Origin: Caldilineales bacterium
Lineage (GTDB): Bacteria > Chloroflexota > Anaerolineae > J102
Direction of reading: 5' to 3'
Length of the DNA stretch: 37,372 nucleotides
NCBI GenBank assembly: GCA_019695115.1
Contig: JAIBAP010000058.1
Location: forward strand, 1-37,372
In this document: in pieces, positions 14,581-20,386 of the stretch
Layout: each line of letters begins with the position of its first letter
How positions within the stretch are numbered: the first letter of the stretch is position 1
Notes under the pieces: generated by a model
Seen by the model: the letters and a program-made list of their open reading frames with translations, nothing else
Database searches by the model: none
What the model was told of the DNA's origin: nothing
Program-made: the position numbers and the translations under genes

Positions 14581-15477
14581 TTGCACAGCCGAAACGGACT
14601 CCTGACCGCCGCCGTCGCCTACATCCTCTGGGGCCTGTTTCCCATCTACTGGAAACTGCTGCAGGATGTCCCACCGCTCGAAATCCTGGGCCACCGCGTG
14701 GTCTGGTCGTTGGCGGTGGTGATCATCCTGCTGGCCGTGCGGCAAAACTGGACCTGGATGGGGCGGATGCTATCTCGCCCGGCCATCTTGCGCGCGGCGG
14801 CGCTGACGGCGCTGCTTTTGATCTCGAATTGGTTCATGTACATCTGGGCCAACAACAACGGGCACATCGTCGAAGCCAGCCTGGGCTATTTCATCACGCC
14901 CCTGGTCAGTGTCTTGCTGGGGCTGGTGGTGTTGCGCGAACGGCTGCGCCCCGGCCAGTGGCTGGCCATCGGCATCGCTGCCGCTGGCGTCGGTTATCTG
15001 CTCCTCAACTCCGGCGGCCTGCTGTGGATTTCGTTCGGGCTGGCGTTGACCTTCGGTTTCTATGGCCTGCTACGCAAGACCGCCCATCTCAGCTCGCTAG
15101 AAGGTCTGACGGTTGAGATGGGCGTCCTTTTCCTGCCGGCGCTGGCCTGGCTGGTCTATCTACAGTTCACCGGCGCGGGTTCGTTTGGCCGCAGTGACGC
15201 TCTGACCACCTTGTTGCTGGTTGGCTGCGGCCTAGTCACGGCTGTGCCGCTGTTGTTTTTTGCCCGGGGCGCCAAGCAAGTGCCGCTGAGCGCCCTGGGC
15301 GTCCTGCAATACGTGGCCCCCACGCTGCAATTCCTCTTGGGGGTGTTGGTCTACGGCGAAGCCTTCACCACCGCCCGGCTGATCGGGTTCAGCATCATCT
15401 GGACGGCGCTGATCCTCTACACCGGCGAAGGCATCTGGCAGAGCCGGCGCCGGCAGCCTCAGTCTGGGCGCGGGTAG
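14581..15477 (+). CDS. rarD: EamA/RarD family transporter
   Basis: A 298-residue inner-membrane protein with ten predicted helices, starting at TTG 14581 after a GGGAGG ribosome binding site. The RarD subfamily shows in G-L-x-x-A-x-x-Y-I-L-W-G-L-F-P-I-Y-W-K near the start, H-R-V-V-W-S, the W-x-x-N-N-x-H-I-V-E-A-S-L-G-Y-F-I-x-P-L segment, and P-L-L-F-F-A-R-G-A-K near the C-terminus. Members are drug/metabolite-type exporters, the substrate usually unknown. Its 3' end overlaps the convergent SelW gene (ending at 15459) by 19 bp. Confidence 0.93.
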   Translation: MHSRNGLLTAAVAYILWGLFPIYWKLLQDVPPLEILGHRVVWSLAVVIILLAVRQNWTWMGRMLSRPAILRAAALTALLLISNWFMYIWANNNGHIVEASLGYFITPLVSVLLGLVVLRERLRPGQWLAIGIAAAGVGYLLLNSGGLLWISFGLALTFGFYGLLRKTAHLSSLEGLTVEMGVLFLPALAWLVYLQFTGAGSFGRSDALTTLLLVGCGLVTAVPLLFFARGAKQVPLSALGVLQYVAPTLQFLLGVLVYGEAFTTARLIGFSIIWTALILYTGEGIWQSRRRQPQSGRG

Positions 15478-15737
15478 GTGGGCGTGGCAGGGCCGACGTG
15501 TTGCCTGAACAGGGCCAGGATCTCGCCGGGTTCGGCATGCCGGCCCAGCGCCTTCTTGGAGAAGATCAGCTCGCCATCGACCCGGAAATCGAAGACCCCG
15601 CCGGCGCCGGTGACGAAGGTGAAGGATTCGATCACGTGTTGGTAATCACCCAGAACATCTGCCGCCGCACGGACGGCTCGGTCGAGGTGGTTTCAAGGTA
15701 CGCAGTATTCGAGGCTGAGGCGGTGTTTTTTGTTCAT
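15459..15737 (-). CDS. selW: SelW/Rdx family selenoprotein with in-frame UGA (CxxU)
   Basis: Reading UGA at 15693-15695 as selenocysteine gives 92 residues: M-N-K-K-H-R-L-S-L-E-Y-C-V-P-U-N-H-L, on through V-T-G-A-G-G-V-F-D-F-R-V-D-G-E-L-I-F-S-K-K to G-R-H-A-E-P-G-E-I-L-A-L-F-R and a normal UGA stop. This is the whole SelW/Rdx fold, a thioredoxin-like redox protein whose active site is CxxC or CxxU; here Cys12 and Sec15. The region after the UGA keeps the family's conserved G-R-H-A-E-P-G-E box, so the frame is under selection. AGG lies about 8 bp before the ATG. Standard gene callers stop at the UGA and miss the gene. The alternatives are a recent nonsense mutation or a base error. Selenocysteine machinery genes are not in the window. 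Confidence 0.8.
15664..15677 (-). promoter_or_regulatory. Possible bacterial SECIS hairpin
   Basis: On the minus strand, 15 nt after the UGA, GCCG-UCCGUG-CGGC can fold into a short stem with a six-base loop (or five pairs with a U-G and a four-base loop). The loop begins about 19 nt after the UGA, within the range known for bacterial SECIS elements, but the first two loop bases lack the usual G. I treat it as plausible only. Confidence 0.35.
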
Positions 15738-15783: not shown

Positions 15784-15974
15784 GTTCCGTAAAACGTGAG
15801 GCGTGAGGCGTGAATGATCTAGCGGAGTGAGCACGCCCACGTGCGAACGGGCGGCGTGAGGCGTGAAACGTGAGGTGTGAAACGTGAGAATCGCCGACAT
15901 CCCTCACGCACCACGGAACACGCACTACGCACCACGGAACACGCACCACGCACCACGCACCACGCAACCCGGAA
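15784..15974. repeat. Heptamer repeat locus 3 with hairpin repeat copy D
   Basis: The order is GTGAGGC/GTGARRC heptamers (about 15796-15815), a hairpin repeat of the GCGGAGTGAGCACG type (15814-15854), five more GTGARRC heptamers (15856-15890), then ten uninterrupted heptamers of the CACGCAC/CACGGAA type (15905-15974). It fills the space between the SelW gene and the methyltransferase gene; no gene is visible in it. Confidence 0.8.
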
Positions 15975-15980
15975 CATGCG

Positions 15981-16787
15981 TCATCCCGCGCGGCGCAGGA
16001 GCAGGAGGTAGTGGTCACCCAGGCCGCGGCTGAGGCGGGCGGTGCGGGTTTCGAGGCGGGCGAGCCGGGTGAAAAGGCCGGGGAAGCGATCGACCAGGTG
16101 GCTCAGATAGCTGGGCGGGAGCCAGAGGCCCAGGCTTTGCACCTGCTCGACCCGGAACCAGGGGGCGAAGTCGCGGCGCATTCGTCCGGCGCCTGGATAA
16201 TGGATGGGAAGGCGAACGTCGCCGATGACGGCCTCGGCCGGGCCATGCAGCCGCCTGAAGGCAGTGCGCAGGTCGGCGTGAGCCAGGTGCCAGGCCATCT
16301 CCCAGGGACAAAACGGCCCCATGGGCGCCAGCACCACCCACCCGCCCGGCCTGACCAACTCCGCCAGCGCCTGGGCCAACGGTCGCCAGTCGCCGAGGAC
16401 GTTCAGGCCGCCGAAATTGGAGAGCACGCCATCGAAGGGCAGGCCAGCGACGGTGTTTTCCGGTTGCCAGCGACGCTGGCCGAGCGTGGAAAGGTCGAGG
16501 AATTGGAAAACGATCTGCTGGTCGACGCCTGCCGCCTGGGCCTTGCCTCTGGCGACTGCCAGCATCGCCGCTGATCCGTCCGTCGCCGTCAGCCAAAGCC
16601 CCTGCCGAGCCAGCCAGACGGCATCCTCGCCGGTGCCGCAGGCCAGTTCCAGCACGTGCTGGCCGGGTCGCAGGCAGGTGGACAAAACGTCCCACACTCG
16701 CTGGCGCAGCCAACGGCCCAGCGTCGTGTTGGTGAAATCAACATCGTAGGCCGGGGCGAGGGCATCGAAGGCGCCGGGCGTGGTCAC
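15981..16787 (-). CDS. Class I SAM-dependent methyltransferase
   Basis: A 268-residue single-domain protein. Motif I is V-L-E-L-A-C-G-T-G-E-D (about residues 45-55), motif II A-T-D-G-S, motif III region L-S-N-F-G-G-L-N-V and the post-motif L-V-R-P-G-G-W-V-V-L-A. The pattern is that of small-molecule Methyltransf_25/UbiE-like enzymes. The C-terminal 80 residues are an extra helical part. The ATG lies 5 bp after the stop of the radical SAM gene, so the two are almost certainly co-transcribed and perhaps act in one pathway. The acceptor is unknown. Confidence 0.85.
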   Translation of the reverse strand: MTTPGAFDALAPAYDVDFTNTTLGRWLRQRVWDVLSTCLRPGQHVLELACGTGEDAVWLARQGLWLTATDGSAAMLAVARGKAQAAGVDQQIVFQFLDLSTLGQRRWQPENTVAGLPFDGVLSNFGGLNVLGDWRPLAQALAELVRPGGWVVLAPMGPFCPWEMAWHLAHADLRTAFRRLHGPAEAVIGDVRLPIHYPGAGRMRRDFAPWFRVEQVQSLGLWLPPSYLSHLVDRFPGLFTRLARLETRTARLSRGLGDHYLLLLRRAG

Positions 16788-16791
16788 GCCC

Positions 16792-18240
16792 CTACCAGCC
16801 CTCAGCCGCGCGCTCGGCAGGCTGCCAACCCCGGCCGGCGGCCTGGCCGCCCTCGCGTTCGCCGGCGGTCAGGCGCATGCCCAGCCGCCCGCGACGAGCG
16901 TTGACCCACATCCGGGCCATGCGCCCCCACTGCCGTTCGCCCGCCCGTCGCTCCTTGTGCAGATTGACCTCGTTCACCATCCAGCGCGTGGCGTGGTCGT
17001 AGAAACGCCGCGAGTGGCGGCCGGCCACACTCAGGTCGCGATCGGTGCGCTCGGCCCAGGCGCGGTCGGCGATGACACGGTCGGCGACCGCCTCATAGTA
17101 CTTCGTACCGCGGATGGGATAGGCGACGGTGGTGAGGAAGACATCGGGGTTGGCTTGTTGCAGATGGGCCACGGTCGCCTTCAGGTCAGCCAGCTCCTCG
17201 CCCTCGTAGCCGAGCATGATGAACATGCCCACCTGGATGCCCGCCGCCTGCAACATCCTGGTTTTGGCCTGCACATCCTCGACGTTGGCTTTGCGTTTCA
17301 TGGCGTCGAGGATGCGCTGCGAACCACTTTCGGCGCCGATCCACAGCCTCCGGCACCCCATCTCGGCCAGGGTTGCAACCACGGCCGGGTTGAGACGGTC
17401 GGCGCGGCTGATGCACTCGAAGGGGATGTGCAGGCCCCGGCGCTTGAGTTCGGCGGCGTAGCTCTGCGTCCAGCGCGGCTGGATGGTGAAGACATCGTCG
17501 GCGTACCAGAGTTGGTCAGGGCGATAGCGTTCGCGTAGATAGGCGACCTCGTTGACCACATCTTCGACGCTGCGCCGGCGGTGCGTCTCGCCGAAGACTG
17601 TGTGGCTGCACCAGGTGCAGGTGTAGGGGCAGCCGCGGGCGGTGATCAGCGAGAGCGAGCGCAGGCCATGATGGGCGCGCCAGGTTTCCAGGTAGCGTTC
17701 GAGGTCGATGGCCTCGCGCGCCGGCCAGGGCTGGGCCGAGAGGTCGGGGATCTGAGCGCGGGCGGCGGTGCGTATCACCCGGCCGTCGCCATCGCCAAAG
17801 GCAATGCCGGCGATGGTCTCGAGCCGGGTCAGCCCATGCCGGGCCAGATGCGGCAACAGCTCGGCCAGGGTCAGTTCGCCTTCGCCGATGACGATGATAT
17901 CGGCGCCATCGTGCAGATAGTCGGCGGCGTAGTGCGGCGGCTCTGGCCCACCCAAGACGACGATCGCCCCGGCCTCCTTGCAGCGTCCGATCATGCGCAG
18001 GACGTTCTGCTTGGTCATCAAGTTGGTGTAGATGCCCACCACCGGCGGCCGCTCCCGCTCGATGGTCTGGCTGAACTCCTGCCAGCGGCTGAAGGTGGAA
18101 TCGAAGACCTCGGCCGCAAAGCCGCCTGCCCGCAGGTGCGAAGCCACATACAGCAGGCCCAGGGGCGGGTAGGGCTTCATCACCTGCAGTTCGTGCGGGT
18201 CTTCGTAGAGGAAGTAGCCGTGGGTCAGGAGGATGTCCAT
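16792..18240 (-). CDS. B12-binding-domain radical SAM protein
   Basis: A 482-residue protein of the BchE-like class. The N-terminal domain (1-140) has K-P-Y-P-P-L-G-L-L-Y-V-A-S-H-L, V-L-G-G-P-E-P and V-I-G-E-G-E-L-T, the cobalamin-domain pattern of this class. The cluster cysteines are 204, 208 and 211 (C-P-Y-T-C-T-W-C), followed by G-A-E-S-G-S. Members typically methylate or remodel lipids and tetrapyrroles; no substrate can be named. ATG 18240 is preceded by repeat-rich low-complexity sequence (GGCGGAGGGCGGAG), not a longer frame. It shares its organisation with the enzyme at 18848-20386. Confidence 0.88.
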   Translation of the reverse strand: MDILLTHGYFLYEDPHELQVMKPYPPLGLLYVASHLRAGGFAAEVFDSTFSRWQEFSQTIERERPPVVGIYTNLMTKQNVLRMIGRCKEAGAIVVLGGPEPPHYAADYLHDGADIIVIGEGELTLAELLPHLARHGLTRLETIAGIAFGDGDGRVIRTAARAQIPDLSAQPWPAREAIDLERYLETWRAHHGLRSLSLITARGCPYTCTWCSHTVFGETHRRRSVEDVVNEVAYLRERYRPDQLWYADDVFTIQPRWTQSYAAELKRRGLHIPFECISRADRLNPAVVATLAEMGCRRLWIGAESGSQRILDAMKRKANVEDVQAKTRMLQAAGIQVGMFIMLGYEGEELADLKATVAHLQQANPDVFLTTVAYPIRGTKYYEAVADRVIADRAWAERTDRDLSVAGRHSRRFYDHATRWMVNEVNLHKERRAGERQWGRMARMWVNARRGRLGMRLTAGEREGGQAAGRGWQPAERAAEGW

Positions 18241-18308
18241 GACGGGCGGAGGGCGGAGGGCGGAGATCAGAGGGCGGAGATTGGAGATTGGAGATTGGGG
18301 ATTGGGGA

Positions 18309-18710
18309 TTAGCCCTGGGCCTGGACTTTGGTGGGGAGGATTTTGTAGGTGACGCGGGCCTCGCCGGGGCGACGCCAGGGGTAGATTTCCTGGCCGGTGT
18401 ATTTGTAGCAGAGGCGGTCGATCATGGTTTCGGCGCCTTCTTCGCTGATATCGACCACCTGGCCCCTGATCTGCAGATAGCGATAGGGGTTGGTGGGGTC
18501 GCTGATGGCCAGGGCGACGTTGGGGTTGCGGCGCAGGTTGCGGTCTTTGACGCGGCCGACGGCGCTGTTGATGATGATGTGCTCGCCGTCGAAGTCGAAC
18601 CACACCGGCGTGACCTGCGGCCCGCCGTCGGCCATGATCGTGGAGAGGTGGGCGAAGGATTTGGTCTCGAAGTTGACGAGATCGCGATAGCTTTCGGGGA
18701 TGGGGGACAT
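18309..18710 (-). CDS. PPOX-class F420- or FMN-dependent protein
   Basis: A 133-residue protein with the split-barrel flavin/deazaflavin-binding fold: F-A-H-L-S-T-I-M-A-D-G-G-P-Q-V-T-P-V-W-F-D-F-D-G, then I-I-I-N-S-A-V-G-R-V-K-D-R-N-L-R-R-N-P-N-V-A, then Y-L-Q-I-R-G-Q-V. This combination is typical of the small PPOX-class F420-dependent enzymes. They reduce or oxidise small molecules using F420 or FMN. The ATG at 18710 is chosen; the longer frame upstream crosses a palindromic repeat. It lies between two B12-type radical SAM genes on the same strand. Confidence 0.87.
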   Translation of the reverse strand: MSPIPESYRDLVNFETKSFAHLSTIMADGGPQVTPVWFDFDGEHIIINSAVGRVKDRNLRRNPNVALAISDPTNPYRYLQIRGQVVDISEEGAETMIDRLCYKYTGQEIYPWRRPGEARVTYKILPTKVQAQG

Positions 18711-18790
18711 GGGGTGTGCTCCTGATCGGTTGGGGTGAGGATGAGAAATGCTGCCCTCTGACGGCCTGGCCTGCCGGTCTCTTACACAAG

Positions 18791-18823
18791 AGGTGCGACG
18801 CACTTCCAAAGTGCGTCGCACCT
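18791..18823. repeat. Dispersed palindrome, copy 2
   Basis: AGGTGCGACGCACTT, CCA, then the exact reverse complement. It is nearly identical to the copy at 4712-4743. Confidence 0.85.
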
Positions 18824-18847
18824 GCTCCCCTCCTCCCTCCCTCCTGC

Positions 18848-20386
18848 CTATTCTCCCTCTTGCGGCGTGGGCGTGGCGGCGGCCAGCGACGACATGCCCG
18901 CCGGCAGTGGCGCCAGGGCGCGATGCGGGAGCCGGGCCAGGCGGTCGAGTTCTCTGCGAGCCAGGGGCAGGGTGGCGGTGTGGTAGAGCATCGCCCCGAT
19001 CTGGCGCAGGCTGGGCGGCGGGGCGCCATCACGACGCCAAAGGCCGCGCCAGGTTTTGGCCGCCCGGTACTCTTTGTGCAGGACGGTGTGGAGATGGCGA
19101 TAGAAGGCGGTGGCGAAGGGGCCGTCGTAGAGCATGGCCAGGTCTTCGGAATCCTGCCAGTTTTGCTTGGCCCCCAGCTGATCCTTGACCCGTGCGAAGA
19201 ACTTCGTCCCCGGCAGCGGATAAGAGACCGACATGCCGATGTCATCCGGGCGACAGTCGCGCACCATTTGCAGGGTCCTCTCGATATCTGAGCGCGTTTC
19301 GCCGGGGTAGCCGAATTGCAGAAAGAAGCCGATCTTGATCCCGTGTTTGTGAAGTAAGGCCGCAGCGGCGTAGATTTGTTCGACCTTGGTGCCCTTTTCC
19401 ATCGCATCCAGGACCTTCTGCGAACCGGATTCGGCCCCCACCCACACGATCCGGCAACCGGCGCGCTTCATGGCTTCGACCTCGCCCGGTCGCAACAGCA
19501 AGTCCACCCGGCTCAGGCACTTGAACGGCGTCACCGCGCCCCCTTGCTCCACCAGATCGGCGAAACGCGACCACCAGCCCGGTTTCAGGCCCACGATGTC
19601 GTCGGCGAACCAGATGTGGTCGGGATGCCAGCTTGTCTGCAGCCACTTCATCTCGGCGGCCACGTTTTCGGGGCTGCGGGCGTTGTAGCGCTGGCCCCAG
19701 ATCGGCTTGGCGCACCAGTTGCAATGGTAGGGGCAGCCGCGCGTGGTCACCATGTTCATCGAGTAGTAGCCATGCCGCCGCCGCCAGATGCCCCGGTAAC
19801 GCTCGACCTCGATCAGATCCCAGGCCGGGAAGGGCAGGACATCGACGGCGGCGATGTCGGGGCGGCGGCGATTGACAACGACCCCTTGGCCCGCGCCTTC
19901 ACCGCCCCAGGCCAGGCCCAGGATGTCGCCAAGGGCCGTTTGGCCGCGCCCGCTCAGGCGATCCAGCAGCTCGACCAGCGTCATCTCACCCTCGCCCACC
20001 AGCACGAAATCGGCGCCGTGGGCCATGTATTCGGCGATGTGATCGGTGGCATCCGAGCCGCAAACAATGACCGTGCAGCCGCAAGCTCTGGCCATCCGGC
20101 TCATCTCGAAGGCAGCCTGGCGCATCCGCAGCAGGCACATCTTGGAGAGATAGTTGAAATTGTCTTCGTAGATGACGGCGAAGCGCGGCTGTTCTCGATT
20201 CAGCGCCTGTTCCCATTCCTGCTCCGACTCAGCCAGCATGGCGTCGAAGAGGGCGACATCGTAGCCGCGCGAGCGCAAGAAACTGGCGGCGTACATCGTC
20301 CCCAACGGGGGATAGGGCTGCATCGCCTCCCACAGTTTGGGGTCGAAACGCAGATAGTAGGATTGGCCGAACAGGACTTCGCTCAT
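18848..20386 (-). CDS. B12-binding-domain radical SAM protein
   Basis: A 512-residue protein. The N-terminal domain has M-Q-P-Y-P-P-L-G-T-M-Y-A-A-S-F-L, V-I-V-C-G-S-D and V-L-V-G-E-G-E-M-T. The 4Fe-4S cysteines are 218, 222 and 225 (C-P-Y-H-C-N-W-C), followed by G-A-E-S-G-S. The N-terminal P-Y-P-P-L-G motif and overall plan match the enzyme at 16792-18240, suggesting related but distinct reactions. The start overlaps the stop of the nucleotidyltransferase gene by 4 bp, so the two are coupled. The last 25 residues are low-complexity and may vary. Confidence 0.88.
   Translation of the reverse strand: MSEVLFGQSYYLRFDPKLWEAMQPYPPLGTMYAASFLRSRGYDVALFDAMLAESEQEWEQALNREQPRFAVIYEDNFNYLSKMCLLRMRQAAFEMSRMARACGCTVIVCGSDATDHIAEYMAHGADFVLVGEGEMTLVELLDRLSGRGQTALGDILGLAWGGEGAGQGVVVNRRRPDIAAVDVLPFPAWDLIEVERYRGIWRRRHGYYSMNMVTTRGCPYHCNWCAKPIWGQRYNARSPENVAAEMKWLQTSWHPDHIWFADDIVGLKPGWWSRFADLVEQGGAVTPFKCLSRVDLLLRPGEVEAMKRAGCRIVWVGAESGSQKVLDAMEKGTKVEQIYAAAALLHKHGIKIGFFLQFGYPGETRSDIERTLQMVRDCRPDDIGMSVSYPLPGTKFFARVKDQLGAKQNWQDSEDLAMLYDGPFATAFYRHLHTVLHKEYRAAKTWRGLWRRDGAPPPSLRQIGAMLYHTATLPLARRELDRLARLPHRALAPLPAGMSSLAAATPTPQEGE

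Follow-up and report, generated by a model that had tools for sequence, protein, structure and literature searches.

The locus considered here lies in a window of 37,372 nucleotides, the whole stretch of DNA that was analysed, from a Caldilineales bacterium. It raises the question of whether a UGA inside an otherwise uninterrupted minus-strand reading frame is read as selenocysteine (Sec), as a preliminary description proposed when it placed a 92-residue SelW/Rdx protein there. Our answer is that this gene almost certainly encodes a real selenoprotein of the SelW-like (Rdx) family, with its UGA read as Sec. Direct observation covers the reading frame, its family assignment, the conservation of both the UGA and the hairpin, and the machinery genes; that Sec is actually inserted at the UGA is what we infer.

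An Rdx reading frame with an internal UGA

Re-reading of the sequence bore out the proposed frame at every coordinate (Table 1). The frame runs from its ATG to a normal TGA stop, as first described, with one internal in-frame TGA, and it translates as MNKKHRLSLEYCVPUNHLDRAVRAAADVLGDYQHVIESFTFVTGAGGVFDFRVDGELIFSKKALGRHAEPGEILALFRQHVGPATPTYPRPD. The gene and the rarD-like gene are convergent, and their 3' ends do overlap by the 19 bp originally given. It had also been claimed that ORF callers miss the gene, and the frame is indeed absent from the listing of open reading frames of at least 80 residues. No other Rdx gene was found in the source genome.

Table 1. Features at and around the SelW-like locus, in window coordinates
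Feature	Position	Strand	Basis
SelW-like (Rdx family) selenoprotein gene	15459..15737	-	ATG start, 92 codons + TGA stop; PF10262, TIGR02174
In-frame UGA as selenocysteine, residue 15 (C12-V-P-U15)	15693..15695	-	TGA in 80/80 relatives
Predicted bacterial SECIS upper stem-loop, GCCGUC-CGUGC-GGCGGC	15661..15677	-	Folding; fixed family position + covariation
rarD-like EamA transporter	14581..15477	+	TIGR00688 over cut-off
Class I methyltransferase, next upstream gene, same strand as SelW	15981..16787	-	

The Pfam Rdx model matches residues 7-78, on both sides of the UGA, at 6.8e-13, and its score of 49.1 bits against a gathering cut-off of 22.6 places the protein in the SelW-like/Rdx family. The corresponding NCBIfam model scores 35.3 bits, just above its cut-off of 34.2. 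The UGA occupies the second redox position of a CxxU motif, where homologues with CxxC have their second Cys, in agreement with the original placement. Two solved structures that align to the protein, PDB 3dex (E 6.5e-10) and PDB 2fa8 (E 1.2e-8), carry Cys at residue 15, as do Cys homologues on plasmid records. These two are bacterial Cys proteins of the SelT/SelW/SelH type (SAV_2001 and Atu0228, respectively) that align with the protein over about 80 residues; they differ from it in having Cys in place of Sec and in their C-terminal box, which is not RHAEPGE. Homology to 3dex and 2fa8 suggests a thioredoxin-like fold. Mammalian selenoprotein W also belongs to the Rdx family and shares the CxxU motif, although in eukaryotes the SECIS is located in the 3' UTR instead.

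A selenoprotein gene implies a host with Sec machinery, and all of it was found in the source genome, which is 5.99 Mb and 100% complete. The genome contains selA (552.8 bits), selB (306.7 bits, or 334.9 with a neighbouring piece added), selD (353.1 bits) and a tRNA-Sec (73.1 bits) with anticodon tca. The selD gene (G000:C3:3875-4810, L010) itself has one in-frame TGA, within CAG-U-ASK, which we take to be the SelD active site. It is therefore likely to be a second selenoprotein gene, and a TGA at that site is a further sign that UGA is decoded as Sec in this organism.

In the mechanism that we propose, the SECIS hairpin immediately 3' of the UGA would direct SelB, loaded with Sec-tRNA(Sec), to this codon (15695-15693). 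The product would be a thioredoxin-like protein of 92 residues whose redox pair is C-V-P-U. Most likely it acts as a small thiol/selenol oxidoreductase in which C12 and U15 form a selenenylsulfide.

Conservation of the UGA and of the hairpin that follows it

Homologues were sought in one genome per species. Because the query had Cys in position 15, TGA gained no advantage in this search. The 80 loci collected from public genomes are mostly from Chloroflexota, with others from Acidimicrobiia, Gemmatimonadota and a few further groups, and they range from 74% to 33% identity. Every one of them has TGA at the residue-15 codon together with Cys at residue 12, and the segment upstream of the UGA that contains this first Cys is conserved in all. 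The same TGA is present in a separately assembled relative from the same genus. A scan of the phylum gave a match in 128 of 301 genomes; the best 59 rows all have a TGA, and stop-free forms appear at lower similarity.

The gene is patchily distributed. The other genome of the genus, G001, lacks it at 98% completeness, and 17 of 61 nearer relatives carry it, each with at least one TGA. In all 17 carriers selB scores above the cut-off; selA does so in 16, and the remaining one has a piece of selA at a contig edge. Since selA is present in 53 of the 61 in any case, the co-occurrence of SelW and selA is consistent with Sec decoding but weak. In four of the 61 genomes (G022, G034, G050 and G060), selA and selB both fail to reach the limits, and none of the four has SelW.

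Downstream of the UGA, the frames of the relatives are intact, with no decay or frameshift. Comparison of this region with the same-genus relative L020 gave a dN of 0.15 and a dS of 0.87, and comparison with L021 gave 0.15 and 1.82, dS values near or above 1 being only rough. These values indicate that the coding sequence 3' of the UGA is under purifying selection. The earlier argument that a frame intact on both sides of the UGA is hard to attribute to chance is upheld by the L020 values, by the Pfam match across the UGA and by the TGA in every relative.

Bacterial SECIS elements are described as having an apical loop of 3-9 nt, an upper stem of 4-16 bp, a distance of 16-37 nt from the UGA, a G among the first two bases of the loop and an energy of -7.5 kcal/mol or lower (PMC13188914). 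The hairpin here falls within all of these limits, with a 6-bp upper stem, a 5-nt loop (CGUGC) that has G at its second position and lies 21 nt after the UGA, and a folding energy of -18.1 kcal/mol. Taken alone, its stability does not exceed that of shuffled sequences (z -1.07), 24-44% of synonymous recodings are equally stable, and a scan with Rfam gave no SECIS model match at the hairpin. Because the single hairpin is not significant, support for a SECIS rests on the family.

Across the family, a SECIS-like hairpin is conserved. Of 81 sequences, 78 have a helix of 5 bp or more at either of two fixed places 3' of the UGA, a count that is somewhat favoured by the picking of these places after folds of the same sequences had been viewed and that is drawn from sequences whose kinship makes them non-independent. 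The two places have the loop starting at base 24 (62/81) or at base 20 (33/81), with the U of the UGA as base 0, and some sequences have both; 3 of 81 lack such a helix at either. At any other position up to base 120, a helix is found in at most 10 sequences, and a null of 200 synonymous recoding trials gave a mean of 24% and a maximum of 37%. Given the large gap to this null, the post hoc choice of places and the kinship should not overturn the result. Compensatory stem pairs are seen as C-G/T-A at 20:32 and 19:33, G-C/A-T at 21:31 and T-A/C-G at 22:30. The hairpin 4 nt nearer the UGA, with loop CGUGA or similar, occurs in Acidimicrobiia-type sequences and a few Anaerolineae loci as a register shift within one family (L021, L029, L032-L035, L037, L038, L040, L077, L078, L086, L088 and L090).

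Other readings of the UGA

One alternative is that the gene for an Rdx protein with CxxC has become a pseudogene, or looks like one, because of a nonsense mutation or an error of sequencing at the TGA; this codon lies one base from TGC or TGT and is the only lesion in this copy. Such an accident would have to recur at the same codon in 80 of 80 independently assembled relatives, and would have to coexist with selection 3' of the UGA, a conserved hairpin and complete Sec machinery; in practice the relatives refute it, and we give it next to no credence. A UGA within a conserved frame would by itself be compatible with insertion of another amino acid, whether because the genetic code is altered or because UGA is generally read through. 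Yet this gene terminates at TGA, as do many of its relatives (TGA 38, TAA 24 and TAG 18 among the 80), the internal UGA exactly replaces a redox Cys, and the genome encodes SelB and tRNA-Sec, so this reading is extremely improbable.

It is just as hard to credit that the true product is a shorter Rdx fragment starting 3' of the UGA, which is how RefSeq treats a homologue in Thermomicrobium roseum. In that record (NC_011961.1, L100:1492-1746), the Rdx CDS WP_012642931.1 begins 3' of an in-frame TGA at L100:1534-1536. A fragment of this kind would lose the redox site, whereas the upstream segment and its Cys are conserved throughout the relatives. WP_012642931.1 is probably a SelW-like selenoprotein whose annotation has been cut short.

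The SelW-like family and the gene neighbourhood

With the UGA read as Sec, the protein joins a family known since at least 2006; the initial claim proves correct, has good support and is of an ordinary kind. Bacterial SelW-like selenoproteins were catalogued in 2006, with the remark that organisms using Sec have hardly any Cys homologues of them, or none (PMC1794560). In the Global Ocean Sampling data of 2008 they were the most abundant prokaryotic selenoprotein family, with CxxU and 427 sequences (PMC2398784). The CxxU motif, the Rdx family, a SECIS directly downstream and the scarcity of close Cys forms are all shared with the gene here, and no difference of substance emerges. What sets the gene apart is its branch, which is rich in Chloroflexota and Acidimicrobiia and is marked by C-V-P-U at the redox site and by an R-H-A-E-P-G-E box; the excerpts consulted from the two surveys do not mention such a branch for the phylum. 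For SelW-like selenoproteins together with Chloroflexi, the 2006 survey was the sole relevant source found.

The finding leaves the understanding of the SelW-like family unchanged. A Chloroflexota genome gains a clear selenoprotein, in a branch where nearly every member has Sec rather than Cys, which is why the gene is missed by a standard ORF listing and a homologue is truncated in at least one RefSeq record. With its two registers, the conserved hairpin offers data that can be used to refine models of bacterial SECIS elements.

Upstream of SelW lies the methyltransferase, in a row with two genes for B12-binding radical SAM proteins (15981-20386, minus strand). This order is kept in the same-genus relative L020, which is probably one genome with L103; none of the other loci fetched has it, and no neighbourhood conserved outside the genus came to light among them. 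G001 lacks a close copy of the methyltransferase as well as SelW. It is conceivable that SelW serves as a dedicated selenol reductant for the upstream genes in a small biosynthetic cluster; given this limited conservation, such a link is only a guess, and an improbable one. A check for phage origin gave no sign of it. Tandem heptamer-based repeats (CGTGAGG and CACGCAC units) occupy 15795-15966, between the methyltransferase and SelW, and the gap between these two genes is 243 nt here compared with about 85 nt in L020.
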